Shown one piece after another: positions 17,837 to 33,477 of a stretch of DNA of 33,634 bases. Numbering within the stretch: the stretch's first letter is position 1; every line of letters begins with the position of its first letter. Origin of the DNA: Intrasporangium sp. (lineage in GTDB: Bacteria > Actinomycetota > Actinomycetes > Actinomycetales > Dermatophilaceae); NCBI RefSeq assembly GCF_030452765.1, contig NZ_JAKDLO010000023.1, positions 1 through 33,634 of the forward strand, read 5' to 3'. The notes beneath the pieces are model-generated. The model made no database searches. It was not told the origin of the DNA and saw only the letters and a list, made by a program, of their open reading frames with translations. Position numbers and translations under genes: made by a program.

Positions 17837-17884
17837 GTCTCCCGCGCCTCGCCCCGACCACGCCCGACGGACAGGACCCATCCG

Positions 17885-18985
17885 ATGACTGAGCACGAGA
17901 ACGGAGCGCCAGCACAGTCGACCGACCTCGCCCACGCGAGCAGCTCCGGCGCACTCACCACCCGTGGCGCCCTGCCCGAACGGTTCGAGAACCCAGGGCT
18001 GCCCCCCCACGTCTACCGAGCGGCCGACGTCGAGCCCCAGGCGGCCAAGCACGCGGAGCGGCAGGTCGCCACGCTCTTCGCGCTGTCCATGGTCGCCACG
18101 CTCGTCTTCCTCGTCACCTACTTCGCGATCCCCGAGGAGTCGACGTTCTTCTTCCCCGGCGTCGGCACGATCAACACGCTGCACGTCGCGCTCGGCCTGT
18201 CGATGGGCTTCTCGCTCTTCCTGATCGGCATCGGAGCTGTCCACTGGGCCAAGACCCTGATGCCCGACCACGAGATCGTCGAGGAGCGCCACCTCCAGCG
18301 CTCGACCGACGAGCAACGAGCCTCGGCCGTCAACGTCGTCGTCGAGGGCGGCCGCAGCGCGCAACTCGATCGCAGGCCCCTGCTGAAGTACACCTTGGGG
18401 GGCGCGCTCGGGCTCTTCGCCCTGCCCTTCGCCTTCCAACTCGTCGGCTCCCTCGGGCCGGTCACGGTCGGGGAGCTCAAGGAGACGATCTGGGACCCGG
18501 AGGAGAACGACGGCAAACCGATCCGCCTCATGCGCGACCCCGAGATGACGCCGATCAAGCTCTCCGACGTCACCCAAGGCTCCGTCTTCCACGTCATGCC
18601 CGAAACCTTGCAGAAGTACCTCGACGAGGGACGTCACGTGCTCGAGGCGAAGGCCAAGGCTGCGGTCATCCTCATCCGTATCGACCCTGACCTGATCAAG
18701 GTCAAGAAGGCCAAGGACTGGAGCGTCGACGGGGTCGTCGCCTACTCGAAGATCTGTACCCACGTCGGGTGTGCGGTCGGCCTCTACGAACAGACGACGC
18801 ACCACCTGCTGTGCCCCTGTCACCAGTCGACCTTCGACCTCACCCATGACTGCGCCGTCATCTTCGGCCCGGCCAAGAGGCCGCTGCCACAGCTGAAGAT
18901 CACTGTCGACGATGCCGGCTACCTCGTCGCGCCGGAGGGGTTCCACGAGCCCGTCGGCCCGAGCTTCTGGGAGCGTGCACGATGA
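17885..18985 (+). CDS. qcrA: Rieske iron-sulfur subunit of the bcc complex
   Basis: 366 aa, the long actinobacterial form. The first 60 residues are polar; three membrane segments follow at about 63-82, 99-120 and 165-184, then the soluble Rieske domain. The 2Fe-2S ligands are in CTHVGC (C291, H293) and CPCHQS (C310, H313), with C296 and C312 placed for the stabilising disulfide. It takes electrons from menaquinol and passes them to QcrC. The start ATG 17885 has the same AGGA-type ribosome site (17870-17878) as qcrC. The stop overlaps the qcrB ATG. Confidence 0.97.
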   Translation: MTEHENGAPAQSTDLAHASSSGALTTRGALPERFENPGLPPHVYRAADVEPQAAKHAERQVATLFALSMVATLVFLVTYFAIPEESTFFFPGVGTINTLHVALGLSMGFSLFLIGIGAVHWAKTLMPDHEIVEERHLQRSTDEQRASAVNVVVEGGRSAQLDRRPLLKYTLGGALGLFALPFAFQLVGSLGPVTVGELKETIWDPEENDGKPIRLMRDPEMTPIKLSDVTQGSVFHVMPETLQKYLDEGRHVLEAKAKAAVILIRIDPDLIKVKKAKDWSVDGVVAYSKICTHVGCAVGLYEQTTHHLLCPCHQSTFDLTHDCAVIFGPAKRPLPQLKITVDDAGYLVAPEGFHEPVGPSFWERAR

Positions 18986-20724
18986 GCACCATCAACGAGG
19001 AACGTCCCGCGGACGCGCTGCGCGCCCACGACGCCGCCGCCCGGCGCGACCACGAGGAGACACGTCCGCTGGGCGGCATCGCCGGCTGGGTCGACGACCG
19101 CACCGGCGGCACCAAGGGCGTCTCGACCCTGATGAAGAAGGTCTTCCCCGACCACTGGTCGTTCATGCTCGGCGAGATCGCGATGTACTCGATGATCATC
19201 TGCCTGCTGACCGGCGTGTTCCTCACCTTCTGGTTCATTCCGAGCATGACGCAGAGCCCGTATGACGGCTCCTACGTGCCGTTGCAGGGGGTCATGGTCT
19301 CCGACGCCTACCGGTCGACCCTCGACATCTCGTTCGACATCCGCGGCGGCCTGCTCATCCGACAGATCCACCACTGGGCGGCCCTGATCTTCGTCGTGGC
19401 CGTCTTCTGCCACATGGCCCGGGTGTTCTTCACCGGCGCCTTCCGCAAGCCTCGCGAGATCAACTGGGTGTTCGGCACGATCCTGTCACTGCTCGCGTGC
19501 ATCGAGGGCTTCGCCGGCTACTCGCTGCCCGACGACCTGCTCTCGGGAACCGGCATCCGCGCGATGAACGGGTTCGTCCAGTCGATCCCGGTGATCGGCT
19601 CGTACATGGCCTACTTCATCTTCGGTGGGGCCTTCCCGGGCGAGCTGATCATCCCCCGCCTGTACTCGCTGCACATCCTGCTGGTTCCGGCGGCACTGGT
19701 CGGCCTGTTCACCGCCCATATCCTGCTCGTGTTCCTCCAGAAGCACACCCAGTACCCCGGCCCGGGGCGCACCAACAACAATGTCGTGGGCTACCCGTTC
19801 ATGCCGGTCTACATCGCCAAGGCGGGTGGCTTCTTCTTCATCGTCTTCGGCGTCATCGCCCTCATCTCGGCGGTCGTCTCGATCAACCCGATCTGGGGTT
19901 ACGGGCCGTACGACCCGTCACCCATCACGGCCGGCTCCCAACCGGACTGGTACATGGGCTTCGCCGACGGAGCACTGCGCCTGCTGCCCGGGTTCCTCGA
20001 GTTCGTGGCCTTCGGGTTCACCTTCAGCATGAACATCTTCCCGGGCTCGATCCTGCTGCTGCCGATCATGTGGACCATCATCGGCATCTACCCCTTCGTC
20101 GAGAAGTGGGTCACCGGCGATGACCGCGAGCACCACCTGCTCGACCGGCCGCGCAACGCTCCGGCCCGCACCGGCATCGGGGTCGCTGGGATCGTTCTCT
20201 ACAGCGTGCTCTTCTTCGCCGCCGGCAACGACCTCATGGCGATCAAGCTGCACCTGTCGATCAACGACATCACCAACACGCTGCGTGTGCTGTTCTTCAT
20301 CGGCCCGCCGATCGCCTACTGGATCACCAAACGCATCTGCCTGAGCATGCAGCAGTACGACCGCGACAAGGTGCTGCACGGACGCGAGACCGGTACGATC
20401 TGGCGTCACGCCAACGGCGAGTTCGAGGAGATCCATGCGCCCCTCACGCCGCGCGAGCGGTGGCACCTCGTCCAGCAGGAGGTCCAGGAGCCGTTCGTCG
20501 TCACCGAGACCACGGACGCGCATGGCGTCGCCAACCCAGTCGCGCGCAAGGATCAGTGGCGGGCCAAGCTGTCCCACTTCTACTTCAAGGACCGGGTCGA
20601 CCCGGTGACGCCGGCGGAGCTCGAGGCGGCCCACCACGCCCACGGGCCGGCCCTCGCCACCGAGCCGACCGAGACCGAGGCCGCCGAGACCGAGGCTTCC
20701 GAACCGGCCATCGAGCGACACTGA
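18982..20724 (+). CDS. qcrB: Cytochrome b subunit of the bcc complex
   Basis: 580 aa; binds two b haems and both menaquinone sites. The b-haem histidines are in RQIHHWAALIFVVAVFCHMARV and SLHILLVPAALVGLFTAHILL. The quinol-oxidising site motif appears as PDWY (in SQPDWYMGF) in place of the PEWY of many bacteria, as is frequent in this phylum. Eight or more membrane segments are followed by a C-terminal cytoplasmic tail ending in a Glu/Thr/Ala-rich stretch (about 550-580). ATG 18982 overlaps the qcrA stop (ATGA), giving translational coupling. It is the last gene of the operon; a 15-bp-stem hairpin follows. Confidence 0.97.
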   Translation: MSTINEERPADALRAHDAAARRDHEETRPLGGIAGWVDDRTGGTKGVSTLMKKVFPDHWSFMLGEIAMYSMIICLLTGVFLTFWFIPSMTQSPYDGSYVPLQGVMVSDAYRSTLDISFDIRGGLLIRQIHHWAALIFVVAVFCHMARVFFTGAFRKPREINWVFGTILSLLACIEGFAGYSLPDDLLSGTGIRAMNGFVQSIPVIGSYMAYFIFGGAFPGELIIPRLYSLHILLVPAALVGLFTAHILLVFLQKHTQYPGPGRTNNNVVGYPFMPVYIAKAGGFFFIVFGVIALISAVVSINPIWGYGPYDPSPITAGSQPDWYMGFADGALRLLPGFLEFVAFGFTFSMNIFPGSILLLPIMWTIIGIYPFVEKWVTGDDREHHLLDRPRNAPARTGIGVAGIVLYSVLFFAAGNDLMAIKLHLSINDITNTLRVLFFIGPPIAYWITKRICLSMQQYDRDKVLHGRETGTIWRHANGEFEEIHAPLTPRERWHLVQQEVQEPFVVTETTDAHGVANPVARKDQWRAKLSHFYFKDRVDPVTPAELEAAHHAHGPALATEPTETEAAETEASEPAIERH

Positions 20725-20736
20725 CCCGGGCTGCTC

Positions 20737-20770
20737 CGCGAGAAGGCCTCCCCGCGGAGGCCTTCTCGCG
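20737..20770 (+). terminator. Strong hairpin after qcrB
   Basis: A perfect 15-bp stem, CGCGAGAAGGCCTCC paired with its complement, around a 4-nt CCGC loop, starting 12 bp after the qcrB stop. No U-run follows, which is common for high-GC actinobacterial terminators. It ends 15 bp before the next gene's start. Confidence 0.75.
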
Positions 20771-20785
20771 TGGGAGACTTCGCCC

Positions 20786-21136
20786 ATGCATCTCACCGAC
20801 GACGAGTTCGAGACAGCCGTCGCCGATGCGCTCGACTCCATCCCGCCCCTGCTCACCGACGCGATGGACAACGTGGTGGTTCTCATCGAGCCAGAGCCGC
20901 CCGGGGACGACCCCGCCCTGCTCGGCGTCTACGAGGGCACGCCACTGACCGAGCGGGACAGCTGGTGGAACGCGGGGGCCCTGCCCGACCGGATCACGAT
21001 CTTCCAGGGACCGCTCCAGCGGATGTGCACCAGCGCCGGAGAGCTCCGCGAGGAGATCGCCGTGACCGTCGTGCACGAGGTGGCCCACCACTTCGGCATC
21101 GACGACGACCACCTCCATGAGCTCGGTTGGGGCTGA
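20786..21136 (+). CDS. Small zincin-like metallopeptidase-family protein
   Basis: 116 aa, with the zinc signature VHEVAHHFGIDDDHLHELGW (HExxHxxGxxD) near the C-terminus and an N-terminal helix starting MHLTDDEFETAV. The family (zincin-like, often found beside respiratory or GTPase genes) has the peptidase motif but no proven substrate. No signal peptide is seen, so it is cytoplasmic. ATG 20786 follows GGGAG about 11 nt upstream, just after the qcrB hairpin. Confidence 0.9.
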   Translation: MHLTDDEFETAVADALDSIPPLLTDAMDNVVVLIEPEPPGDDPALLGVYEGTPLTERDSWWNAGALPDRITIFQGPLQRMCTSAGELREEIAVTVVHEVAHHFGIDDDHLHELGWG

Positions 21137-21195
21137 GCCAAGACGAACCAGGCTCCACGAAGGACCACAACCCCTGAAGGGACCAGGACCGTCCG

Positions 21196-22248
21196 ATGCC
21201 TGCCCGGCAGTTGCTGAACCCGCCCAAGGCCGCCCCCGGCGACGGGGTCGCCGTCGTCTCGCCGTCATACGCCGCACCAGGATACGCGCCCGCCGTGCAC
21301 GGGCAGGCGATGGCCCGCCTCGCCGAGATCACCGGGCTCACGCCCGTCGAGTACCCGACGACCCGCCTGCTCGAGGCATCCCCCGAGCAGCGCGCCGCAG
21401 ACCTCAACGCGGCGTTCGCCGACCCCGGCATCCGGGCGGTCCTCGCCACCATCGGCGGCGAGGACCAGATCACCGTGATCCCGCACCTCGACCCCGCCCT
21501 CGTCCGGGCCGACCCCAAGCCCTTCCTCGGGTACAGCGACAACACCAACCTGCTCAACTGGCTGTGGACCGTTGGCATCGCCTGCTTCCATGGCGGCTCG
21601 ACCCAGGTTCACCTGGGTCCCGGACCGGCGGTCGACGACATCCATGCCCGGTCGCTGCGCGCGGCGCTGCTGACCGGTGAGCGGCTCGAGGTGACCGACC
21701 CGGGAGTGTCGGAGGACTTCGGCACCGACTGGCTCGACCCGGCGGCCCTGACCGACTTCGGGGAGCGCGAGCCCACCGAACCGTGGACCTGGGCCGGGCC
21801 GGCCCGGGCGGTCACCGGTCCCACCTGGGGTGGCTGTATCGAGGTCGTCCAGTCGATCCTCACCGCCGGTCGCTTTCCGGCTGACCCAAAGGTCCTCGGC
21901 GGCGGCGTGCTGCTCGTGGAGACCTCGGAGGAGCTGATCCCGGCCCGGGAGTTCGGCTGGATCCTGCGTTCCCTCGGCGAACGCGGCGTGTTGAACGCGG
22001 TGGAGGCTGTTGTCGTGGCGCGGCCGCCGTCGTCGTCCTTGGCGGATCGTCCCTCACGTGAAGAGCGGGCAGCCCGTCGGGCCAGCCAACGCGACGTAGC
22101 CGTCGAGACGGTGCAGCACTACAACCCCGAGGCAGTCATCGTGGTGGGCGTGCCGTTCGGCCACACGCGGCCACAGTGGATCCTCCCTTACGGGGGTCGC
22201 CTGAGAGTCGACGGCACGGCCCAGCGCATCTGGGCCGACTACTCCTGA
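21196..22248 (+). CDS. S66-family LD-carboxypeptidase/MccF-like serine peptidase
   Basis: 350 aa. The expected Ser-Glu-His triad is visible: the nucleophile in FLGYSDNTNLL, Glu in VLLVETSEELI and His in VPFGHTRPQWILPYG. The family cleaves the terminal D-Ala from murein tetrapeptides or, in the MccF branch, hydrolyses microcin-type acyl-adenylates. The N-terminus PGDGVAVVSPSYAAPG is typical. No signal peptide is seen, which fits a cytoplasmic recycling or immunity role. ATG 21196 has a weak AGGA-type site. It is the last gene before the left edge of the island: its stop lies 22 bp before the direct repeat. Confidence 0.92.
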   Translation: MPARQLLNPPKAAPGDGVAVVSPSYAAPGYAPAVHGQAMARLAEITGLTPVEYPTTRLLEASPEQRAADLNAAFADPGIRAVLATIGGEDQITVIPHLDPALVRADPKPFLGYSDNTNLLNWLWTVGIACFHGGSTQVHLGPGPAVDDIHARSLRAALLTGERLEVTDPGVSEDFGTDWLDPAALTDFGEREPTEPWTWAGPARAVTGPTWGGCIEVVQSILTAGRFPADPKVLGGGVLLVETSEELIPAREFGWILRSLGERGVLNAVEAVVVARPPSSSLADRPSREERAARRASQRDVAVETVQHYNPEAVIVVGVPFGHTRPQWILPYGGRLRVDGTAQRIWADYS

Positions 22249-22269
22249 GCCGGCTGGGTGCCGCGCGCC

Positions 22270-22626
22270 TCAAGAAGACCCCGATGATGAACAGCCACCA
22301 GTGGAGCGGGCAGCGAGCCTTCCGGCCAGGGCGAAGCCGGCGGCGATGACGGCGTCGGAGAGCGCGGCGCGGCGGTGGCGTCGGTTCAGCAGCCCGAGCC
22401 CCAGCATGCTGACCGCGTGGGCCAGGTCGACCTGTGCGCCAAGGGCGAGCACCGGGTAGCCCGGCCGGGCCCCCGAGCCGAGCGCCTGGACGAGCTGGCG
22501 GGAGGCGAGCACCCGGGCCACGACCCGCTCGCGCGGGCCGAGCCCTCGCCGCAGCAGCCCACCGGCCACCCGGTCGGGCCAGGCCAGCACCACGATTCCG
22601 TAGCCGGCGCGAGCCACCGCCAGCAC
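22270..22626 (-). CDS. Small hydrophobic protein of unknown function; C-terminus formed by the island junction
   Basis: 118 aa from a GTG at 22626, resembling small actinobacterial membrane proteins with the pattern RxxxARVLGxRxLxQ (here RVVARVLASRQLVQA) followed by VDLAHAVSMLGLGLLNRRHRRAALSDAV. Three or four short hydrophobic stretches. The last 11 codons (ending TGGCSSSGSS) are read from the ctaF-derived repeat in a different frame from ctaF, so the natural C-terminus has been replaced. The N-terminus is uncertain: an open frame runs up to 22857 through a 25-bp tandem duplication that shifts the frame. It may be a disrupted gene. Confidence 0.5.
   Translation of the reverse strand: MLAVARAGYGIVVLAWPDRVAGGLLRRGLGPRERVVARVLASRQLVQALGSGARPGYPVLALGAQVDLAHAVSMLGLGLLNRRHRRAALSDAVIAAGFALAGRLAARSTGGCSSSGSS
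22271..22300 (+). repeat. Left copy of the 30-bp direct repeat (ctaF fragment)
   Basis: Matches 33136-33165 at 29 of 30 positions; the only difference is G here versus A there at the 13th base. Read on the minus strand it encodes WWLFIIGVFL, the same ten residues as in CtaF. The flanks on both sides are unrelated to ctaF. Confidence 0.9.
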
Positions 22627-22715
22627 CGTGCCGGGGGCGGGCGTCGTTGCCCACCCGTCAGTATGAAGCGCGCCCTGAACCACGGCCGGACCCCCGTTCT
22701 GTGCTGGTGCTGCGT

Positions 22716-22765
22716 CCCTCGGCTTGTACCCAGAAATCGGCCCTCGGCTTGTACCCAGAAATCGG
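22716..22765 (+). repeat. Perfect 25-bp tandem duplication
   Basis: A 25-bp unit beginning CCCTCGGCTTGTACCC occurs twice without a gap (22716-22740 and 22741-22765). Since 25 is not a multiple of 3, it shifts any reading frame that crosses it. It lies upstream of the minus-strand small membrane-protein gene and about 140 bp before the plus-strand operon at 22905. Confidence 0.95.
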
Positions 22766-22904
22766 CCCGTTCGCCGATCACGCAGAGCGTCCGGAGCCGG
22801 CGCAGCCCGGGTGGCCGGGCCCGACCCGGGCCCGGTCCGGGTAGCGCGCCGGCTCATCGGGTATGTGCCGGTTGGTTGCCCGTCGAATCACCCCGGAGGT
22901 GTTC

Positions 22905-23375
22905 ATGTCCTGGTTCCACCACAGTCCAGCCCACGAGCGCGAGGTCGAGCACCTCGTCGACCGGATGGTGCGCAACGTCGAGCACGGCCGGTTCGAGCGG
23001 TCGCTGTCCGGGCTGACCGCGATCGCCGCGCTGCTCACCACCGCGGAGGTGTTCGCCGAGCATTACAAGGCCAGCTTCGGCAACAAGTGGATGTGGTCGC
23101 CGATCCTGGTCACCCCGCCGGTCGTCGTCGCCGGTGTCGCCGGGGTCTACAGCAAGCGGTGGGCCAAGACGGTCCTGCCGGTCGCCGCCGGGATCTACAC
23201 CGCGAACGGGCTGGCCGGTGAGTTCTTCCACGCCCGCGGAGTGGCCCGCAAGCCGGGCGGATGGGCGCTGGCGTCATACAACGTGCCGATGGGCCCCCCG
23301 ATCGCGGCGCCGGGCTTGATGTGCGTGGTCGGCGGGATGGGGCTGCTGGCCGCGCTGCTGCGCCGGGAGAAGTGA
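22905..23375 (+). CDS. Small integral membrane protein linked to the GMC dehydrogenase
   Basis: 156 aa, family not recognised. A charged N-terminus (HSPAHEREVEHLVDRMV) is followed by about four hydrophobic segments near residues 34-54, 66-86, 90-108 and 133-151. ATG 22905 follows CGGAGG by 7 nt; an upstream in-frame ATG at 22863 lacks such a site. Its TGA shares a base with the next ATG (TGATG at 23373-23377). Being coupled with a subunit-3-like protein and a GMC dehydrogenase, it is a candidate membrane anchor or quinone-side partner for them. That is inferred from position only. It has no CxxCH haem motif. Confidence 0.8.
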   Translation: MSWFHHSPAHEREVEHLVDRMVRNVEHGRFERSLSGLTAIAALLTTAEVFAEHYKASFGNKWMWSPILVTPPVVVAGVAGVYSKRWAKTVLPVAAGIYTANGLAGEFFHARGVARKPGGWALASYNVPMGPPIAAPGLMCVVGGMGLLAALLRREK

Positions 23376-24142
23376 TGGCGGCCAGCGACCGGGCGGACAA
23401 GGTCGACATGGACAAGGGTGAGCACCTGCCGCACCGACGGGCCGACGGGCAGCCGCCGCACCCGTCCTGGCTACCCCGGCAGCGGGTCGGCACCACCCCG
23501 CAGATGATCGGACGCTACCCCGACTACGACGTGCTGGCGGCGGCCGGCACCTGGGACGAGGCCACCAGGAAGGCGGTGTTCGCCCGGCTGGAGCCGCCCG
23601 GGCCGTTGCGGTTCTTCACCGCCGCCGAGGAGCCGACGCTGCGTGCCTTCTGCGATGTGTGCACCGCCCAGGACGTTGAGCCGCGGGTTCCGGTGGCCGA
23701 GTCGGTGGACACCAAGTTGGCCGACGGCAAGCTCGACGGGTTCCAGTACGCCGACATGCCCGATGACCGGGACACCTGGCGGCTGGTGCTCGCCGGCCTG
23801 GACGAGACGGCCCGGGACCGGGCTGGGACGCGGTTCGCCGACTGCGACCTGCCCGCCCAGGGGGCGATCGTCGGCGATCTCGCCGCGGGCAACCTGTCCG
23901 GCGGGTCGTGGCAGCAGTTGAACGTGGCCCGCGCGTGGTCGGTGTGCATGCGCGCGATCCTGTCCGGGTTCTACTCGCACCCGTGGGCCTGGAACGAGAT
24001 CGGCTTCGGCGGCCCGGCCTATCCGCGCGGTTACATGCGCACCGGACCGGTCAGCACCCTGGAGCCGTTCGAGAAGCCCGGGGCGACGTCCGAGGACGCA
24101 GCCGTCGTGGTGTCCGCGCACCCAGAGGAGTTCGACGAATGA
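23375..24142 (+). CDS. Gluconate 2-dehydrogenase subunit 3-like protein
   Basis: 255 aa; the central part (about 80-215) matches the small subunit of membrane-bound sugar-acid dehydrogenases: RFFTAAEEPTLRAFCDVC, a helical region with DTWRLVLAGLDE, and the C-terminal AFYSHPWAWNEIGFGGPAYPRGY-like block (here GFYSHPWAWNEIGFG). In the classic complexes this subunit is exported by the Tat route carrying the GMC subunit with it. Here no twin-arginine signal or hydrophobic leader is visible, so the pair may stay cytoplasmic. Its start overlaps the membrane protein stop, and its TGA (24140-24142) overlaps the GMC ATG, so the three are made together. Confidence 0.85.
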   Translation: MAASDRADKVDMDKGEHLPHRRADGQPPHPSWLPRQRVGTTPQMIGRYPDYDVLAAAGTWDEATRKAVFARLEPPGPLRFFTAAEEPTLRAFCDVCTAQDVEPRVPVAESVDTKLADGKLDGFQYADMPDDRDTWRLVLAGLDETARDRAGTRFADCDLPAQGAIVGDLAAGNLSGGSWQQLNVARAWSVCMRAILSGFYSHPWAWNEIGFGGPAYPRGYMRTGPVSTLEPFEKPGATSEDAAVVVSAHPEEFDE

Positions 24143-25860
24143 ACCGCCAGACCGGTCGCTTCCGTGGCCTGCTCAAGGGCTCGGTCGGGCCCGTCGACAA
24201 CGACTCGCGGTACCTGCTCGACGTGCACTCCCGCCAGCTGCCCGGCGAGGCCACCATGCGGCACTACGACGAGGACGAGCAGGTCGACCTGGTCGTCGTC
24301 GGGGCGGGCGCCGGAGGGTCGGTGCTGGCCCAGCGGCTGGCCCGGCGTGGCTGGCGGGTGGTGATCCTCGAGGCCGGCCCGTTCTGGCACCCCGACGAGG
24401 ACTGGGTCTCCGACGAGGCCGGCTCGCACGGGCTGTACTGGACCCAGAAACGGATCATCGGCGGAGCCGACCCGATCGAGCTGGGCAAGAACAACTCCGG
24501 ACGCGGGGTCGGCGGCTCGATGATCCACTACGCCGGCTACACACCCCGGTTCCACCCCTCCGACTTCGAGACCTTCACCCGGGACGGGGTCGGCGCGGAC
24601 TGGCCGATCCGGTACGAGGACCTGCTCGGCCACTACGAGCGGGTCGAGGCCGAGCTGCCGGTGGCGGGACAGGACTGGCCCTGGGGCTACCCGCACCGCT
24701 ACCCGTTCAGCCCGCACCCGGTCTCGGAACAGGCCACCACGCTGTGGCGCGGCGCCCGCAAGCTCGGGATCCAGATGCGGGTCGGGCCGGTCGGGATCGT
24801 CAACGGCACGTTCGGCAACCGGCCGCACTGCATCTACCGCGGGTACTGCCTGCAGGGCTGCAAGGTCAACGCCAAGGCCAGCCCGTACGTCACCCACCTG
24901 CCCGACGCGCTGGCCCACGGGGTCGAGATCCGGGCCGGCTGCATGGCAGCCCGGGTCGAGCTCGACGAGGCCGGCCGGGCGCGTGGTGTCGTCTACTTCG
25001 ACGAGGCGGGCGGGCCCGAGCGGCTGGCGCGGGCCCGGTTCGTCGCGGTTGCCGGGTACTCGATCGAGACCCCCCGGCTGTTGCTGGGCTCGACCTCGGC
25101 CCGGTTCCCCGACGGGCTGTGCAATGACCACGACCAGGTCGGTCGGTACGTCATGGTCCAGGGCGCCACCCAGACCGCGGGCCGGTGGCCCGATGAGATC
25201 CGGATGTACAAGGCACCCCCGCCGGAGGTCTCCAGCGAGGACTTGTACGAGACCGACGAGTCCCGCGGCTTCGCCCGCGGCTTCTCCATCCAGACCGTCT
25301 CCCCGCTGCCGATCGGCTGGGCCGAGCACGTGCTGGCCGACGGGCACTGGGGCCGAGCGATGCGCGAGTACATGCGCGACTACAATCACTGGGCCACTGT
25401 GGGCGTGCTCAACGAGCTGCTGGCCCACCCGGACAACCGGGTGACCCTGGCCGAGGAGACCGACCCCTACGGGTTGCCGGTGGCGCGGATGGACTACACC
25501 CTGACCGACAACGACAAGGCCAACATGGCCTACTCCACCCACGTGATCACCGACATCCTGCGGGCCGGCGGCGCGCAGGACGTGCTGACCATCCACCGCT
25601 ACGCGCACCTGATCGGCGGCGCCCGGATGGGCAGCAGCCCGGAGGCCAGCGTCGTCGATGCCAACCAGCGCGCCTGGGCGGTGCCGAACCTGTTCCTGGC
25701 CGACGGGTCGGTCTGCCCCACCCAAGGATCGGCCAACCCGGCCCTGACCATCATGGCGCTGGCTTCCCGGCTGGCCGACCGGATGGCCGACGGGACCGCT
25801 ATGGACGAGGACCCACAGGCCCGCACCGGAACCACCCCGGCACGCCAACCGACCGGCTGA
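24139..25860 (+). CDS. GMC-family FAD dehydrogenase, gluconate/glucose-dehydrogenase-like large subunit
   Basis: 573 aa, an FAD enzyme oxidising a sugar, sugar acid or alcohol. The FAD-binding Rossmann motif is VVVGAGAGGSVLAQRLA (about 53-69), followed by VVILEAG; the second GMC block is GRGVGGSMIHYAG (121-133). CIYRGYCLQGC (C231, C237, C241) has the C-x5-C-x3-C spacing that binds a 3Fe-4S cluster in direct-electron-transfer glucose dehydrogenases. The C-terminal catalytic block is HLIGGARMG, then FLADGSVCPTQGSANPALT with the conserved His and Asn. There is no signal peptide. ATG 24139 overlaps the preceding TGA, and this decides the start. The usual multihaem cytochrome c partner is missing. 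The substrate is not predictable. Confidence 0.9.
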   Translation: MNRQTGRFRGLLKGSVGPVDNDSRYLLDVHSRQLPGEATMRHYDEDEQVDLVVVGAGAGGSVLAQRLARRGWRVVILEAGPFWHPDEDWVSDEAGSHGLYWTQKRIIGGADPIELGKNNSGRGVGGSMIHYAGYTPRFHPSDFETFTRDGVGADWPIRYEDLLGHYERVEAELPVAGQDWPWGYPHRYPFSPHPVSEQATTLWRGARKLGIQMRVGPVGIVNGTFGNRPHCIYRGYCLQGCKVNAKASPYVTHLPDALAHGVEIRAGCMAARVELDEAGRARGVVYFDEAGGPERLARARFVAVAGYSIETPRLLLGSTSARFPDGLCNDHDQVGRYVMVQGATQTAGRWPDEIRMYKAPPPEVSSEDLYETDESRGFARGFSIQTVSPLPIGWAEHVLADGHWGRAMREYMRDYNHWATVGVLNELLAHPDNRVTLAEETDPYGLPVARMDYTLTDNDKANMAYSTHVITDILRAGGAQDVLTIHRYAHLIGGARMGSSPEASVVDANQRAWAVPNLFLADGSVCPTQGSANPALTIMALASRLADRMADGTAMDEDPQARTGTTPARQPTG

Positions 25861-25871
25861 AGGGAGGGCGG

Positions 25872-26219
25872 ATGCCCGGCTTCTTCCCCTACTGGGTGGT
25901 GGTCACCCACTTCCTGAACATCTTCCTGCTGCTGCTGCTGGCCCGCTCCGGGCTCGAGGTGATCTCCGCCTTCCCCAAGCTCTACTGGCACGACGACTGC
26001 CCACCCGGACGGTAGTGGCTGGCCCTGGACATGAACGGCGCCCCGCTACCGGTCGAGCACGGAGCCCCCATCCGGCTCCGCGTCGAGACCCAGTTCGGCT
26101 TCAAGATGGTCAAGTGGATCGCCGCGATCGAGTTCGTCGACGACATCACCGACATCGGCATGGGCATGGGCGGCTTCCGCGAGGACCAGCAGTTCTACGC
26201 CAACGCCGCCGGAATCTGA
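25872..26219 (+). pseudogene. Collapsed cytochrome b/sulfite-oxidase-type molybdopterin fusion gene
   Basis: One frame runs through the whole interval with a single TAG at 26013-26015. Before the stop lie 47 codons, MPGFFPYWVVVTHFLNIFLL and on to FPKLYWHDDCPPGR, the first membrane helix of a cytochrome b561-like domain. After it lie WLALDMNGAPLPVEHGAPIRL, FGFKMVKWIAAIEFVDD and GGFREDQQFYANAAGI, the C-terminal end of a sulfite-oxidase-fold molybdopterin enzyme. The remaining helices and the molybdopterin domain, several hundred residues in intact fusions, are gone. The TAG stands where relatives usually have Glu before Trp (from memory), so it could be a GAG-to-TAG change. ATG follows GGAGGG in AAGGGAGGGCGG. 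It lies 11 bp after the GMC gene. Confidence 0.75.
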
Positions 26220-26236
26220 AGAAGGGTCGAGCAGCC

Positions 26237-28006
26237 GTGCCACCACAAGCCCACCCGCACCGAGGTTTCCCGCCATACGTGCTGCGCGAGTACGCGCTGC
26301 TCGCCGACGGAGAGCGCGGCGCCCTGCTGGGCCCACGCGGCGACGTCGCGTGGCTGTGCGCGCCGTGCTGGCACTCCGAAGCCGTGTTCTCCAGCCTGAT
26401 CGGCGGCGCAGGCTACTATGCGGTCACCCCGGTCGACGAGTTCGTGTGGGGCGGCTACTACGAGCAGGGGTCGCTGGTCTGGCGGTCTCGGTGGGTCACG
26501 AGCACCGGGATCGTGGAGTGCCGCGAGGCCCTGGCCTTCCCGGGCGACCCGGAACGGCTGGTCTTGGTGCGACGAGTCGTCGCCGTCGAGCACGACGCTC
26601 ACGTACGGGTGCTGCTCGACCCGCGGGCCGGGTTCGGACAGCACCCGATGACCGACCTGAGCAAGGACCACGGGATCTGGACCGCGACCTGCGGACCGTT
26701 GCGGATGCGCTGGTCGGGCGCTGCGCAGGCCAGGCGGCGATCCGGAGGCGAGCTGGCCCTCACTCTGCGACCGGCCACCGGGGAGCACCATGACCTCGTT
26801 CTCGAGCTGACCTCGGGCAGGCTGCCGGACCGACCACCCGATCCGGATGCGGTGTGGGAGGCGACCGAGCACGCGTGGTCGGTCGCCGTGCCCGACCTGG
26901 CCGACTCGGTGGCTCCGCGCGACGCCCGGCACGCCTACGCCGTCCTGCGCGGGCTGACCAGCCACGGCGGTGGCATGGTTGCCGCAGCCACCATGAGCCT
27001 GCCGGAGCGGGCCGAGCAGGGCCGCAACTACGACTACCGGTACGTGTGGATCCGCGACCAGGCCTTCACCGGTCAGGCGATCGCGGCCGCCGGCGCCCAC
27101 CCGCTGCTCGACGAGGCGGTCCGGTTCGTCTCAGCCCGGCTGCTCGACGACGGTCCGGACCTGGCCCCGGCCTACACCATCCTGGGTGGACCGGTCCCCG
27201 ACCAGCGCACCCTCGACCTACCAGGGTATCCCGGCGGCCACGACATCACCGGCAACCACGTCAACGCCCAGTTCCAGCTCGACGCGTACGGCGAGGCGCT
27301 GCTGCTGCTTGCCGCCGCCGCCGGTCACGACCACCTCGATGCCGACGGCTGGCGGGCCGCCGAGACCGCGGTCGCGGCGATCGGTGCACGCTGGACCCAG
27401 CCGGAGGCCGGGATCTGGGAGCTGCAGCCACGCAACTGGACCGAGAGCCGGCTGATCTGCGTGGCCGGGCTGCGTGCCATCGCCTCGGCCGGTGCGCCAC
27501 CGGCACAGACCGGCGCCTGGCTCGCCCTGGCCGAGCGGATCCTCGCCGAGACGGCCGCCACCAGCACCCATTCGTCGGGCCGGTGGCAGCGTGGCCCCGA
27601 TGACGACGGCCTGGACGCCGCGCTCCTGCTGCCACCGCTGCGAGGCGCCGTACCCGCCGACGACCCGCGCACCGTCAGCACCGTATCGGCCCTGCTCGAG
27701 GAGCTGGCCGACGACCACTTCCTGTACCGCTTCCGGCAACAGCCCGGACCCCTGGCCAACGCAGAGGGCGCGTTCGTGCTGTGCGGATTCGTGATGGCGA
27801 TGGCCCAGCACCAGCAGGGCAACCAGATCGAGGCGTTCCGCTGGTTCGAGCGCAACCGCGCCACCTGCGGGCCGCCGGGGCTGTTCGCCGAGGAGTACGA
27901 CGTGGCCCAACGCCAGCTGCGCGGCAACCTGCCTCAGGCCTTCGTGCACGCACTCATGCTCGAGGCCTCGATCCGGCTCGCCGAACCCACAGCGGGTCCC
28001 CGATGA
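26237..28006 (+). CDS. Glycoside hydrolase family 15 protein (glucoamylase/trehalase-like)
   Basis: 589 aa: an N-terminal beta-sandwich (about 1-215) and the alpha/alpha-toroid catalytic domain. Catalytic blocks: NYDYRYVWIRDQAFT (about 265), the general acid in AGIWELQPRNW (about E395), and the second Glu in GLFAEEYDVAQRQLRGNLPQ (about E552/E553). Bacterial members cleave alpha-1,4-glucans, or alpha,alpha-trehalose in some actinobacteria, to glucose. No signal peptide, so the substrate is intracellular. The GTG start at 26237 precedes PPQAHPHRGFPPYVLREYALL, the normal N-terminus of the family; GGGTCGAG lies upstream. Released glucose could feed the neighbouring dehydrogenase. The stop overlaps a small ORF. 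Confidence 0.88.
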   Translation: MPPQAHPHRGFPPYVLREYALLADGERGALLGPRGDVAWLCAPCWHSEAVFSSLIGGAGYYAVTPVDEFVWGGYYEQGSLVWRSRWVTSTGIVECREALAFPGDPERLVLVRRVVAVEHDAHVRVLLDPRAGFGQHPMTDLSKDHGIWTATCGPLRMRWSGAAQARRRSGGELALTLRPATGEHHDLVLELTSGRLPDRPPDPDAVWEATEHAWSVAVPDLADSVAPRDARHAYAVLRGLTSHGGGMVAAATMSLPERAEQGRNYDYRYVWIRDQAFTGQAIAAAGAHPLLDEAVRFVSARLLDDGPDLAPAYTILGGPVPDQRTLDLPGYPGGHDITGNHVNAQFQLDAYGEALLLLAAAAGHDHLDADGWRAAETAVAAIGARWTQPEAGIWELQPRNWTESRLICVAGLRAIASAGAPPAQTGAWLALAERILAETAATSTHSSGRWQRGPDDDGLDAALLLPPLRGAVPADDPRTVSTVSALLEELADDHFLYRFRQQPGPLANAEGAFVLCGFVMAMAQHQQGNQIEAFRWFERNRATCGPPGLFAEEYDVAQRQLRGNLPQAFVHALMLEASIRLAEPTAGPR

Positions 28007-28140
28007 ACACCACCCGACCAGTCGATGCCCTCCGCTCGACCGACCCTCGCCATCGCCGCGCCGCACCCACCCACGCAGCCCTCGCGACATCGTTCGCCGC
28101 CCGAACCACCGATCCGACCACCTGGAGAGAGCACAGATGA
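28003..28140 (+). CDS. Possible 45-aa linker ORF between the GH15 and SDR genes
   Basis: Its ATG (28003-28005) overlaps the GH15 TGA, and its TGA (28138-28140) overlaps the SDR ATG, both as ATGA. The product (MNTTRPVDALRSTDPRHRR to TTWREHR) is basic and of unknown family. Third-position G/C is lower than in the neighbours (about three quarters by eye). It may be a real small protein, or only a translated bridge that lets ribosomes reach the SDR gene. The SDR gene also has its own GGAGAG ribosome site. Confidence 0.35.
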   Translation: MNTTRPVDALRSTDPRHRRAAPTHAALATSFAARTTDPTTWREHR

Positions 28141-29192
28141 CACATGCAAGCACATCCAAGACGCATCAGGCGCGTGGCACCGGCAAGATAGTCGTCGTCA
28201 CCGGAGGAACCGGAGGCATCGGCCGGGCGACCGTCCGCGCCTTCGCCGCCGCCGGGTATGACGTCGCGGTCCTCGCCCGCGGACAGGCCGGCCTCGACGC
28301 GGCGGTCCAGGACGTGGCGTCGGCCGGCTCCCGCTCGCTGGGCATCGAGACCGACGTCGCCGACTACAGCGCCGTGCGAGGCGCGGCCGACCATGTCGAG
28401 GACAAGCTCGGCCCCATCGACTGCTGGGTCAACGTCGCGTTCACCTCGGTCTTCTCCCGGTTCGTCGACATCGACCCCGACGAGTACCGCCGAGTCACCG
28501 AGGTCAACTACCTCGGCTTCGTCTACGCCACGATGGTGGCGCTGTCCAAGATGCTCCCGCGAGACCGCGGCACGATCGTGCAGGTCGGCTCCGCCCTGGC
28601 CTACCGCGGCATCCCGCTGCAGACCGCGTACTGCGGGTCCAAGCACGCCATCCAGGGCTTCCACGAGGCGCTGCGCTGCGAACTGCTGCACGAGAAGAGC
28701 AACGTGCACGTGACGATGGTGCAGATGCCCGGCACGAACACGCCCCAGTTCGACTGGGTGCGCTCCAAGCTGCTCAAGAAGGCGCAACCCGTGCCGCCGA
28801 TCTACCAGCCCGAGATCCCGGCCACCGCGGTCCTGTATGCCGCCGAGCATCCACGCCGCCGCGAGTACTGGGTCGGCGGCTCGACCGTTGGCACCCTGAT
28901 CGGCGACAAGCTCGCGCCCGGCCTGCTGGACCGATACCTGGCCAGGACCGGGTTCTCCTCCCAACAGACCGACACCGACCGGCCGGCGAACCAGCCGGAG
29001 AACCTGTGGCAGCCGGCCGACGGCCCCGACGGACGCGACTACGGCGCCCATGGACGGTTCGACGAGCAGGCCAAGACCCGCAGCTACCAGCTGTGGGCCT
29101 CCCAGCACCATGGGCTCGTCGCCACCGGCGCGGCGGCCGTCGGTGCAGGCGCGGGCGCGCTCGCGTGGTGGGGTCGTCAGCGCCATACGTGA
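28137..29192 (+). CDS. Short-chain dehydrogenase/reductase with a C-terminal membrane anchor
   Basis: 351 aa. Classical SDR: the cofactor motif VVVTGGTGGIGRA (about 19-31), the catalytic Ser152 in VQVGSALAYRG, and Tyr165/Lys169 in TAYCGSKHA. The NAD-strand motif usually NNAG reads CWVNVAF here, a family variant. After the SDR fold (to about 260) there is a polar linker and a hydrophobic segment (about 329-347, GLVATGAAAVGAGAGALAWWG), so the enzyme may be tethered to the inner membrane with the catalytic domain in the cytoplasm. The start ATG 28137 follows GGAGAG by 7 nt. Substrate unknown. Confidence 0.88.
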   Translation: MTHASTSKTHQARGTGKIVVVTGGTGGIGRATVRAFAAAGYDVAVLARGQAGLDAAVQDVASAGSRSLGIETDVADYSAVRGAADHVEDKLGPIDCWVNVAFTSVFSRFVDIDPDEYRRVTEVNYLGFVYATMVALSKMLPRDRGTIVQVGSALAYRGIPLQTAYCGSKHAIQGFHEALRCELLHEKSNVHVTMVQMPGTNTPQFDWVRSKLLKKAQPVPPIYQPEIPATAVLYAAEHPRRREYWVGGSTVGTLIGDKLAPGLLDRYLARTGFSSQQTDTDRPANQPENLWQPADGPDGRDYGAHGRFDEQAKTRSYQLWASQHHGLVATGAAAVGAGAGALAWWGRQRHT

Positions 29193-29258
29193 GAGAGCCA
29201 GAGGCATCCCAGCGGCGGACGCCGCAAGCCACGACCCGAAACGCAAGGAGAATGTGCC

Positions 29259-30640
29259 ATGAGCAGCACGGTCAGCGACGTCATCATCGACCGGTTGATC
29301 CAGTGGGACCTGCACCGGTTCTACGGGTTCCCCGGCGACGGGATCGGCGGCTTCGACGCCGCACTGGAGCGCGCCGAATCCGACGGGAAGGACTTCCGCT
29401 ACATCCGCCCCACCCACGAGGAGATCGCCGCCTTCCTCGCCTGCGCGCACGCCAAGTTCACCGGCGAGGTCGGCGTGTGCATCGCCACCTCCGGTCCGGG
29501 TGCGGTGCACCTGCTCAACGGCCTGTACGACGCCAAACTGGACAACCAGCCCGTGGTCGCCATCGTGGGCCAACAGGGCCTTGTGTCGCTGGGCAGCGAC
29601 ACCCAGCAGGAGATGGACCTCGAGGCCATCTTCGCCGACGTCGCCGGCTACGTGCAGACCGTCACCACCCCCATGCAAGCCCCGATGGTCCTCGACCGCG
29701 CCGTCCGGATCGCTGCCGCCGAACGCTGCCCGACCGTGGTCATCCTGCCTGCAGATGTGCAGAACCTGGCGGCGGTCGAGCCGGCGGCCGAGCACTGGGT
29801 CTCCCGCACCGGCGTCGGGCACGGATCGACCAGCCTGGTCCCACCCGACGACGAGCTCGATCGCGCCGCCGAGGTCCTGAACGCCGGCAGCAAGGTCGTG
29901 ATGATGGTCGGCCAGGGCGCCCGCGGCGCCACCGACGAGGTCATCGCCGTCGCGGAGCGGCTCGGCGCGGGTGTGGTCACCGCCCTGCTGGGCAAGGACG
30001 TCGTGCCCGGCGACCTGCCGTACCACACCCAGCAGCTCGGGCTGCTCGGCTCCAAACCGAGCTACGACATGATGCAGGACTGCGACACCCTGCTCATGGT
30101 CGGCAGTTCGCCCACCCGGGCCGCCCGGTGGTGTGCACCATCGGTGACGGCGCGTTCCAGATGCTCGGCATGAACGAGCTGCTCACCGTCAAACGGCACT
30201 GGCGCGAGTGGGAGAACCCGTGCTTCATCGTGCTCGTGCTGCACAACGGCGACCTGACCCAGGTGTCGTGGGAGATGCGCGAGGTCGGCGACCCCCGCTA
30301 CGACACCAGCCAGCTCGTCGAGGACATGGACTACGCCGGGTACGCCGGGCTGCTCGGCCTGCGCGGCATCACCGTCAAGCGACCCGAGGAGGTCGAGGAC
30401 TTCTGGGAGCAGGCCTTCGCCGCCGACCGGCCCGTCGTCCTGGACGTGCACACCGACCCCAACGTCCCGCCCCTGCCCGCCCACATCTCCTTCGACGAGG
30501 CCAAGGGCTTCCTTTCCACCCTGCTCAAGGGCGATCCTGCCGAGTCGGCCGTGATCCGCAACTCCGCCCGAGCGATGGCGGCGCAGCTTTTCGCCAAGGC
30601 CAAGGACGCCGTCACCCACGACGACACGACGCAGCCATGA
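29259..30640 (+). pseudogene. Thiamine-diphosphate enzyme (pyruvate oxidase/decarboxylase-like) with internal deletion and frameshift
   Basis: The N-terminal 284 codons encode the pyrimidine-binding domain and the start of the central domain: GFPGDGIGGFDAAL, the catalytic-Glu motif RPTHEEIAAFL (about 50-60), IATSGPGAVHLLNGLYDAK, and MVGQGARGAT. At about 30105-30112 it leaps from MVGSS into AHPGRPVVCTIGDGAFQM in another frame, the C-terminal diphosphate-binding domain (GDG motif, HNGDLTQVSWEMRE where most have HNN), which ends at 30640. About 130 residues of the usual 570-600 are missing. The uncorrected frame stops at 30173. ATG 29259 follows AAGGAG. The intact enzyme would decarboxylate or oxidise a 2-oxo acid. 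Confidence 0.85.
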
Positions 30641-30755
30641 GCGGTCGACGAGCTGCTGGTCGGACCACGATAATCGGCTGGTGCACGCCGCTGCCTACAC
30701 CATCCGCCCGAAGCCACCGCAGCAGATGGCATCGCCGCCTGACTGATGGGATCGT

Positions 30756-32711
30756 GTGGATGGGGAGATCGAGGTCAACGTCGTGAGCGGGAAGTCTGAC
30801 ACAGGTTCCAGCGCAGGGCGGGACGAGGCCGCACGCGAGGGTTGGGCCAAGCAGGCGCTCGTGGCGTTGGCCACGCTCGGCGTCGTCTACGGCGACCTGG
30901 GCACCAGTGTCATCTACTCGCTGCACACGGTGTTCACCGGCGGCGACCGGGTGCTCGCACCGAATCCGGTGAACGTGCTGGGCGTCCTGTCGCTGGTGTT
31001 CTGGACGTTGATCCTCATCGTCTCGGTCAAGTACATGGTCTTCGTGCTGCGTGCGGACAACCGCGGTGAGGGCGGCATGTTCGCGCTGATCGCCCTGCTG
31101 CGCCCATGGCGGAACATGCAGCGTCTGTCGCGCCGCGGCCTGGTCCTGCTCGGGTTGGCCGGAGCGTCGATGCTCTATGCCGGCGTCATGATCACCCCCG
31201 CGATCTCGATCCTCAGCGCGGTCGAAGGGTTGCAGGTCGCCTCGCCCGGTATGGCGCGCTTCGTGCTCCCGGTGACGCTGGTGATCCTGGTCCTGCTGTT
31301 CGCCGTGCAGCACTTCGGGTCGACACGGGTCGGCTGGACATTCGGGCCGATCATGGCGGTGTGGTTCCTGGTCATCGCGGCGCTGGGTGCGTACGGCATC
31401 ACCGTGCAACCGCAGGTGGTGTCCGCCGTCAACCCAGCGCATGCCGTCGAGTTCTTCAGCCGCAACGGGGTGGAGGCCTTCCTGATCCTCTTCGGCGTCT
31501 TCCTGGTCACCACCGGCGCCGAGGCTCTGTACGCCGACATCGGACACTTCGGGCGCAGTCCGATCCGCTGGATCTGGTTCGTGTTCGTGCTGCCGGCGCT
31601 GCTGCTCAACTACTTCGGGCAGGGCGCGATGCTGCTGCAGGACACGCGACGTACGGAGCAGCCTTTCTATCACCTCATTCCTTCGGCGTTGCTCTACCCG
31701 CTGGTCGGCCTGGCGATGCTGGCCACGATCGTCGCGTCGCAGGCTGCGATCACGGGCGCCTTCTCGATGACGCACCAAGCCGCCAGGCTCGGCCTCGTGC
31801 CACGCTCACGGATCGTGCAGACCTCCGAGGAGACCTCCGGCCAGGTGTATGTGCCCTTCGTGAACTGGGTGCTGATGGCTGCGGGGATCGGCCTGGTGGT
31901 GTTGTTCCAGAGCTCGAACAAGCTGGCGAGCACCTACGGCATCAGCATCAGCACAACCATGGTCGTCACCACGGTCCTGGCGTTCGTCGTGGCCCGCGAA
32001 TGGGGTCGCTGGCCGTTGTGGCAGGCCCTGGTGTTCCTGATCGGGTTCTTGGCCATCGACCTGACGTACTTCGGCTCCAACCTGATGCGGATCCCGCACG
32101 GAGGCTGGTTCCCCGCCGCGATGGCAGCCCTGCTCTTCACGATGATGGCGACGTGGCGCCGCGGCGGTGAGCTACTGGCGCGGCGGGCCGACACGGACGC
32201 GAAGACCATGGAGGAGCTGCTCGGCGAGATGGAGCGGGACAGCGTGGCGCGCGTCCCTGGCACCGCCGTGTTCGTGACTCCGCGGCTCACCGACACGCCG
32301 GCGTCGCTGGCCCACCACGTGCGACGCAACCATGCCCTGCAGGAGCAGGTGGTGCTGCTGACCGTCCTCGGCGAGGACGTGCCCCGCACCACCCGTGAGG
32401 AGCGGCGGGACTTCGACGACCTGGGCGCCGGGTTCTTCCGCGTTGTGCTGCACTACGGCTACATGCAGCAGGCCAACGTCCCCTCCGAGCTGGCAACCTG
32501 CACGGACGATGGCCTCCAGATCGACCTGAAGGAGGCCACCTACTACATCGAACACGAGTCCCCGCTCAGTAGCGGAGGTCGACTGCGCGGCCTGACGGTC
32601 TGGCGACGTCGCTTGTTCGGCTTCCTGGTGCGCAACTCGCTCGACGTCACCATCCACTACCAGATCCCGAGCCGGCAGGTCGTGGACGTGAGCCTGCGCG
32701 TGCGCATCTGA
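30756..32711 (+). CDS. kup: Kup-family potassium uptake protein
   Basis: 651 aa potassium/proton symporter of the KUP/HAK family. About 12 membrane segments lie between residues 30 and 465. Signature stretches are VVYGDLGTSVIYSLHTVF (about 43-60), ADNRGEGGMFALIALL (about 100), GVMITPAISILSAVEG (about 146) and TTGAEALYADIGHFGR. A cytoplasmic domain of about 185 residues follows. GTG 30756 gives the listed frame; a second GTG at 30783, with GAGG about 9 nt upstream, is equally plausible and would shorten the N-terminus by nine residues. It is the only transporter in the island and is followed by a hairpin. Potassium uptake is consistent with a stress-related island, but this is inference. Confidence 0.93.
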   Translation: MDGEIEVNVVSGKSDTGSSAGRDEAAREGWAKQALVALATLGVVYGDLGTSVIYSLHTVFTGGDRVLAPNPVNVLGVLSLVFWTLILIVSVKYMVFVLRADNRGEGGMFALIALLRPWRNMQRLSRRGLVLLGLAGASMLYAGVMITPAISILSAVEGLQVASPGMARFVLPVTLVILVLLFAVQHFGSTRVGWTFGPIMAVWFLVIAALGAYGITVQPQVVSAVNPAHAVEFFSRNGVEAFLILFGVFLVTTGAEALYADIGHFGRSPIRWIWFVFVLPALLLNYFGQGAMLLQDTRRTEQPFYHLIPSALLYPLVGLAMLATIVASQAAITGAFSMTHQAARLGLVPRSRIVQTSEETSGQVYVPFVNWVLMAAGIGLVVLFQSSNKLASTYGISISTTMVVTTVLAFVVAREWGRWPLWQALVFLIGFLAIDLTYFGSNLMRIPHGGWFPAAMAALLFTMMATWRRGGELLARRADTDAKTMEELLGEMERDSVARVPGTAVFVTPRLTDTPASLAHHVRRNHALQEQVVLLTVLGEDVPRTTREERRDFDDLGAGFFRVVLHYGYMQQANVPSELATCTDDGLQIDLKEATYYIEHESPLSSGGRLRGLTVWRRRLFGFLVRNSLDVTIHYQIPSRQVVDVSLRVRI

Positions 32712-32723
32712 GTGTGCATCTGC

Positions 32724-32834
32724 TCAGGGCTCCAACCGGCCGAGTTCGATGGTGACCGTGTGAGGTTCGCCCTGGCGCACCATCTTGAGGTCGTCCAGTG
32801 GATCCTCACTCTTTACTCCGGGCCTTGAACGGGG
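32724..32834 (-). pseudogene. Possible 3' remnant of an unidentified gene
   Basis: A minus-strand frame without a start codon reads VKSEDPLDDLKMVRQG, then EPHTVTIELGRLEP and a TGA. The composition and the alternating hydrophobic ending resemble the C-terminus of a PDZ-like or other beta-rich domain, but it is too short to assign. It faces the kup gene tail to tail, 12 bp from its stop. Confidence 0.3.
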
Positions 32835-32881
32835 TTACGGTCGTCAATACCCAGTCACCGATCGGGACGGAGGTACCGAAG

Positions 32882-32926
32882 ATGTTGTCTCCCACACGAT
32901 CGCACCGGCGACCGGAAGGCCCGTGA
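32882..32926 (+). CDS. Possible 14-aa ORF ahead of a hairpin
   Basis: ATG followed by 13 codons (MLSPTRSHRRPEGP) and TGA. GGAGG lies 8 nt upstream, and a perfect 12-bp-stem hairpin starts 15 bp after the stop. This leader-peptide layout normally precedes a regulated gene, but the next gene (ctaF) faces the other way. It may be an orphaned leader left at the island edge, or coincidence. Confidence 0.3.
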   Translation: MLSPTRSHRRPEGP

Positions 32927-32941
32927 AGAGGTGACTCACCC

Positions 32942-32970
32942 AAGGGGAAGGCGTTGACCGCCTTCCCCTT
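32942..32970 (+). terminator. Perfect hairpin downstream of kup
   Basis: A 12-bp stem, AAGGGGAAGGCG with its exact complement, around a TTGAC loop, followed by CTTC. It could stop transcription from the kup side and, being symmetrical, from the ctaF side as well. Confidence 0.7.
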
Positions 32971-33075
32971 CTTCATGTCTGTCAGTCCTCATGCCGGTTG
33001 GGTCCCTGCCTGCCAAGGCCTCAGGTCTGTTGGGCGTGCCTGCCCGTCGACCGCGTCGGGCCCGGCACCGCCTGA

Positions 33076-33477
33076 TCAGATCGAGTAGTCACCAGAGAAG
33101 GACTCGAAGACCCACAGGATCAGGGCGAAGATGCCCAAGAAGACCCCAATGATGAACAGCCACCACCCGACTGCCAGCCCGAGGAACATGATCGCACCGG
33201 AGCCGCCCAGCCACAGCGGCGTCCACGAGCTCGCGACGAAGTAGCCGTAGTTGCCCTCGGCCTCCGCGATCTCACCGGTCAGGTTGTCCTCGGGCCGCAC
33301 GGGCAGATGCTTGCCGGTCTGCCACAGGTAGAACGCGACGAGCAGGAGCAGACCTGCGGTCAGCAGCAGGGCGACGACGCCGATCGGCTCGCTCCAGCCG
33401 GACCAGAACCCGTACACGAGCGTGACGGGGCCGAAGAAGAGGAACAGGTAGAAGAAGAGCTTTGTCTCGACGCGCAT
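33076..33477 (-). CDS. ctaF: Cytochrome c oxidase subunit IV, actinobacterial type
   Basis: 133 aa membrane subunit of the aa3 oxidase. Four hydrophobic segments: about 6-26, 33-50, 88-104 and 105-125, matching actinobacterial CtaF. The C-terminal part is WWLFIIGVFLGIFALILWVFESFSGDYSI in two blocks (WWLFIIGVFL, then GIFALILWVFESF). ATG 33477 lies 3 nt after the ctaD stop, with GGAGAGG upstream, so ctaD and ctaF are co-transcribed. The gene is intact although one copy of the island's direct repeat (33136-33165) lies inside it. Confidence 0.95.
   Translation of the reverse strand: MRVETKLFFYLFLFFGPVTLVYGFWSGWSEPIGVVALLLTAGLLLLVAFYLWQTGKHLPVRPEDNLTGEIAEAEGNYGYFVASSWTPLWLGGSGAIMFLGLAVGWWLFIIGVFLGIFALILWVFESFSGDYSI
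33136..33165 (+). repeat. Right copy of the 30-bp direct repeat, inside ctaF
   Basis: Pairs with 22271-22300 (29/30 identical). Being inside an intact gene, this is the parental copy, or the copy restored by an incoming element. Confidence 0.9.

Follow-up and report, generated by a model that had tools for sequence, protein, structure and literature searches.

Gene content of the locus

The window analysed here, 33,634 nucleotides long, is the entire contig C259 of the source genome (Intrasporangium sp., G000), a 329-contig draft. Towards its right end an accessory block of sugar, redox and potassium-transport genes lies between an LD-carboxypeptidase (LDC) gene and a conserved segment that precedes ctaF (Table 1). 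Near the left end of the block a 25-bp unit is repeated 2.1 times with no mismatch (22716-22768); it has no exact match in viral contigs and occurs in five of 203 loci, every one of which comes from the window's own contig.

The left edge of the block truncates the tail of a gene. Homologues of the small hypothetical gene align up to residue 184-185, where its frame enters a scrap of ctaF, and the homologue in Intrasporangium chromatireducens Q5-1 (G001) stops two codons later. Judging from comparison with other genomes, two block genes were broken by internal deletions. At 26018/26019 about 1.14 kb is missing relative to G017, whose intact protein carries PF01292 and PF00174, and there is an in-frame stop; at 30104/30105 about 442 bp is missing relative to G001 and G033 (445 bp relative to G017) and the frame is changed.

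Table 1. Features around the accessory block, in window positions
Feature	Position	Strand	Basis
Zincin-like metallopeptidase gene, putative ancestral left neighbour of the gap	20786..21136	+	PF06262; upstream of the segment in 10/10
LD-carboxypeptidase gene (LDC), apparent earlier arrival in the gap	21196..22248	+	PF02016/PF17676
ctaF scrap, 30 bp (left repeat copy)	22271..22300	-	29/30 to 33136-33165
Small hypothetical gene at left block end, 3' end running into the scrap	22301..22857	-	Homologue alignments
170-aa protein without known family	22863..23375	+	No Pfam, PHROG or NCBIfam match
Gluconate_2-dh3 subunit gene	23369..24142	+	PF13618
GMC oxidoreductase gene, start uncertain	24139..25860	+	PF05199, PF00732
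Cytochrome b561/molybdopterin oxidoreductase gene, remnant	25872..26217	+	Comparison with G017
GH15 gene, trehalase-like, start uncertain	26270..28006	+	PF00723, PF19291; below NCBIfam trehalase cut-offs
SDR oxidoreductase gene	28137..29192	+	PF00106; NF005495 above cut-off
Thiamine-pyrophosphate (TPP) enzyme gene, broken	29259..30640	+	N and M domains matched
Kup potassium transporter gene	30756..32711	+	PF02705/PF22776
Conserved segment, putative ancestral right flank of the insertion point	32808..32977	+	86% identical to G001; pattern in 10/186 family genomes
ctaF, intact, containing right repeat copy 33136-33165	33076..33477	-	Cyt_c_ox_IV, PF12270, E 7.5e-41

A direct repeat shared with ctaF

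A sequence-only reading of this DNA had described a 30-bp direct repeat, an accessory block between its copies, a left copy that is a ctaF scrap beside the LDC gene and a right copy within intact ctaF, and all of this is borne out. The two copies have the same orientation and a spacing of 10,865 bp. The repeat is real and far exceeds a chance match: the next-best place for the 30-mer in the window has 10 mismatches, the best match in ten order-2 Markov versions of the window has 10-12, and 22180-22420, searched against the whole source genome, matched only itself and the ctaF copy (E 5.3e-7). The right copy corresponds to ctaF codons 105-114 (WWLFIIGVFL), and the left copy begins 22 nt past the LDC stop. 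Similarity between the copies ends abruptly at the borders of the 30 nt, and neither flank of the scrap resembles ctaF.

The scrap differs from the resident ctaF at one position and from the ctaF of 41 other loci, several of which are second stretches of one genome, at three or more. The one base that separates the scrap from the resident gene is G in the scrap and A in the gene; G is also the state in 28 of the 29 ctaF loci within 8 mismatches. The scrap therefore seems either to retain an older state of its own lineage's ctaF or to come from a sister strain. When 22200-22900 was searched against 186 family genomes, matches were found in 119, those outside the own genome being short pieces at E 9e-8 or weaker. 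Matches falling on the scrap were checked in G084, G083, G185, G199 and G171, and every one lay inside a ctaF gene. Literature searches on ctaF as an integration site, on templated insertion and on insertion hotspots, which included the available part of PMC7719229, found nothing on the Intrasporangium ctaF locus, and neither did searches on the genus, small proteins and the block gene set.

Position of the insert in the congener and the family

Comparison within the genus comprised two genomes, the source and the one congener I. chromatireducens. On the congener's contig C269 (NZ_AWQS01000269.1) a stretch matches window 17777-22249 with 81% identity over 4.5 kb; there the LDC stop is followed by 33 nt and then by the conserved segment, and the block is absent from the corresponding place. 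A relative without the block, which the sequence-only reading had suggested looking for, is thus available, on a contig that stops 65 bp beyond the segment, with ctaF outside the view.

Across the family the segment pattern was present in 10 of 186 genomes, the source and the congener among them, and the backward control gave 0. A zincin gene stands upstream of the segment in all ten, and the eight genomes besides these two have the order zincin, segment, ctaF. In the stretches taken from those eight no LDC gene lies between zincin and segment. Among 80 LDC loci taken from genome contigs, a single one, from I. chromatireducens, showed the segment next to LDC (blastn at E ≤ 1e-6, on stretches differing in length). 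Since LDC lies between zincin and the segment in the two Intrasporangium genomes alone and the order is zincin-segment-ctaF elsewhere, the LDC gene looks like an earlier arrival in the zincin-ctaF gap, and the block seems to have come later, entering between LDC and the segment.

Because the congener has LDC, 33 nt and the segment in succession and eight further genomes have the segment before ctaF, the insert runs from about 22301 to 32800 (~10.5 kb), between LDC and the segment. Its right end falls after kup, which stops at 32711, and at 32807 at the latest, and the alignment with G016 starts at 32795. A 27-residue reading on the minus strand (32727-32807) was considered as a gene tail cut at the right edge, without result; 27 of 186 family genomes matched it at E ≤ 1, the own genome included, and the best match elsewhere had E 0.105. 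On the left, the exact breakpoint is not fixed by the alignment, as the 22-nt spacer between LDC and the scrap has no obvious match to the congener's 33 nt; the microhomology spotted by eye at this junction is only weak (GCC). With its right edge at or before 32807, the insert stops some 330 bp short of the right repeat copy. The 30-bp repeat does not mark both ends of an inserted element, and the claim that it frames a 10.9-kb island holds for the repeat itself and fails for the framing of the inserted DNA.

The 3' end of ctaF and known classes of insertion

According to the sequence-only reading, an element had entered at ctaF and restored its 3' end. An imported end should differ from the rest of the gene in its resemblance to relatives. 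In comparison with eight relatives, the last 20 codons of ctaF (stop included) are 73-87% identical and the first 103 codons 72-83%, and the gene lacks the divergence step that an imported end would leave. The 3' end is thus as native as the remainder of the gene, and ctaF itself is evidently not the insertion target. A Pfam and PHROGs scan of eight block proteins, all of them outside the remnants and small ORFs, matched neither an integrase or other recombinase nor a transposase, and the window holds no tRNA gene. On the congener's uninterrupted site outside ctaF, the native 3' end and the lack of an integrase among the scanned proteins, ctaF was rejected as an attachment site. The same reading also offered the alternative of a ctaF piece copied to the far side, and this is the option we favour. 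The sequence-only interpretation as a whole is thus partly supported, its integration-site version not supported.

The locus also differs from an integrase-type island in its geometry. The right repeat copy starts at 33136, beyond the right edge of the insert, no restoration of a tRNA or gene end is seen, and the congener shows LDC next to the segment and not next to a shortened ctaF. Were the repeat copies to recombine, LDC would be fused to a ctaF that lacks its end, and the congener is not arranged in this way. Nor does the locus look like a transposon or composite transposon, as the scanned proteins include no transposase and the right edge has no repeat copy next to it. It has what an illegitimate insertion with filler DNA leaves behind, namely an insert absent from the same place in a relative and a junction sequence that matches nearby DNA, here ctaF ~330 bp off.

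Similar variable segments are attributed to illegitimate recombination in the available part of PMC2884548, which estimates that this process lies behind 41-56% of small variable loci in E. coli. The block resembles those segments in being present or absent at one place, in having no recombinase found, in the short repeat at its base and in its intergenic site. It differs from them in that one repeat copy lies ~330 bp beyond the insert edge, inside a gene, rather than at both bases. The block and the scrap are ordinary in kind, and nothing here is new in kind. The lesson is that even where a direct repeat convincingly surrounds an accessory block, its copies need not be a pair of attachment sites, which is a warning against calling islands from repeats only.

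Relatives and origin of the block

The larger pieces of the block are 66-76% identical to G001 and G017, compared with 80-81% for the adjoining backbone. Short pieces reach backbone-level similarity (79-86% to G017 for 25873-26217, and 87% to G001 for 67 bp), and the GC content of the block is not set apart from its surroundings. Identity below the backbone in the larger pieces, set against the short pieces and the GC content, makes a horizontal (foreign) origin likely, though short of proven. No donor was identified among the relatives and plasmids compared. G017 has the gene families of the block, Kup and the small minus-strand gene excepted, in a different order within ~14 kb.

A plasmid search with the first 8 kb of the block matched 210 records, none of which covers 80% of the query; the commonest first name among them is Rhizobium (50 records). 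Deinococcus sp. D7000 p_2 matches best, followed by Frondihabitans and Streptomyces plasmids, with DNA identities of 68-71% across 41-51% of the 8-kb query, and relatives of the sugar/redox gene set occur on plasmids of Deinococcus, Frondihabitans, Streptomyces and Rhodococcus. The sets on Deinococcus sp. D7000 p_2, Frondihabitans plasmid 1 and the Streptomyces sp. NBC_01230 plasmid resemble the block in having gluconate-dehydrogenase-subunit-3/GMC, TPP-enzyme, SDR and GH15 families side by side, but their order and neighbours differ and the window copy is partly broken. The right flank of the insert has no match among the plasmids. On p_2 (CP058536.1, 1-15661) the TPP-enzyme/SDR/gluconate-dehydrogenase/GH15 set stands beside cytochrome oxidase, Rieske and cytochrome b genes, which parallels the position of the window block beside qcr and cta genes; this may be either coincidence or a functional link.

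The congener carries a GMC block of its own on contig C150 (4720-7621), and the island was considered as a relocated version of it. The C150 block shares 73% identity with that of the island, and its flanks match contig C202 of the source genome (4791-9378) with 88% and 85% identity around other genes; the island copies therefore do not look like its orthologues, and the idea was rejected. There the source genome holds two genes, one transporter-like and one aminopeptidase-like as judged by eye, and the two genomes thus differ in such a block at a second place as well.

A possible course of events

Taken together, we propose with moderate confidence, as an evenly balanced judgement, that the block is foreign DNA taken up through illegitimate end joining and that its 30-nt scrap is filler, templated by ctaF ~330 bp away from the break. 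A break would have occurred in the gap between LDC and the conserved segment before ctaF, and foreign accessory DNA would have entered by illegitimate recombination. Repair would have added 30 nt to the LDC-side end, presumably in the same event as the insertion and with ctaF, which in the ancestral order lay ~330 bp off, as the template; the extended end would then have been joined to the incoming DNA within the final codons of one of that DNA's genes. Internal deletions would subsequently have removed pieces of the block. The end-joining machinery may have been at hand, Ku being encoded in all six genomes searched (the source and 5/5 relatives). In favour of filler capture are the empty site in the congener, the zincin-segment-ctaF order in eight genomes, the native end of ctaF and a scrap nearest to the own ctaF, together with the non-ctaF flanks of the scrap, the cut gene tail, the two deletions, the plasmid relatives and the lower identity of the block. 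Against it are that no intermediate was seen, that one congener was compared, the unfixed left breakpoint, the backbone-like short pieces and the indistinct GC content. The base by which the scrap departs from the resident ctaF means that a sister strain's ctaF could be an alternative source. If this reading is true, the locus is a readable fossil of integrase-free DNA entry into an actinobacterial chromosome.

Other histories were weighed. Homology-facilitated illegitimate recombination would require donor DNA in which the block was already joined to the ctaF region, with a homologous crossover on one side, an illegitimate join on the LDC side and a scrap that is donor ctaF. The process is described for naturally competent bacteria in the available parts of PMC3240628 and PMC2884548, it likewise joins foreign DNA illegitimately on at least one side, and it would fit a scrap base that 28 of 29 close ctaF copies share but the resident gene does not. 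However, no homologous anchor on the block could be shown of the kind that the available part of PMC3240628 describes, no genome was seen with the block beside ctaF in another order, and ctaF has no divergence step marking an imported end; we regard this history as unlikely. Somewhat less probable again is that the ctaF region was once doubled and its left copy almost entirely lost except for 30 bp, since neither a trace of the segment nor further ctaF sequence flanks the scrap, and the congener shows none, even though the scrap is near-identical to ctaF and in its orientation.

An assembly error at the left junction would be conceivable in so fragmented a draft, in which the contig runs on for 157 bp beyond the start of ctaF. 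A false join at the repeat would, however, keep true ctaF on one side, and here both sides are non-ctaF, such that two false joins would be needed; the copies also differ by one base, and we rate an error slightly below the doubling. Least plausible, and to our minds highly improbable, is a site-specific element that used ctaF as its attachment site, restored the 3' end and later lost the old one. The 30-bp direct repeat around the accessory block speaks for it, but the insertion point outside ctaF, the native 3' end, the lack of an integrase in the scanned proteins and of a tRNA gene in the window all speak against it.

The gap beside ctaF and its conserved segment

At least three different inserts occur beside ctaF among the ten genomes with the segment, namely LDC (G000 and G001), the block and a ferric-reductase-like gene (G199). 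It is conceivable, although we think it rather doubtful, that the family preferentially captures DNA in the gap that separates ctaF from the metallopeptidase gene after qcrB, and that this gap was filled independently by LDC, the 10.5-kb redox block and the G199 gene, with ctaF templating the repair scar; three inserts in ten genomes do not establish a hotspot. The G199 gene, on contig C408 (2628-4022), lies between the conserved segment and ctaF.

The segment itself consists of a promoter-like start, GACGGAGGT, a 14-codon ORF (MLSPTRSHRRPEGP in the window) and a terminator-like repeat. Its search against Rfam gave no match at gathering scores, with three weak matches far below the cut-offs. 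No covariation was seen in the CGAUC/CGAUCG stem among the ten genomes, and codon position 3 of the ORF varies only slightly more than positions 1 and 2, so that a peptide, a leader and a small RNA cannot be told apart from these alignments. We consider the hairpin beside ctaF, with its pairing of the Shine-Dalgarno sequence, a more interesting by-product than the block. In all ten single folds an upstream CGAUC is predicted to pair with CGAUCG within the ORF, placing the Shine-Dalgarno sequence in the stem, and the upstream arm, which lies outside the search pattern, is yet invariant in all ten genomes.
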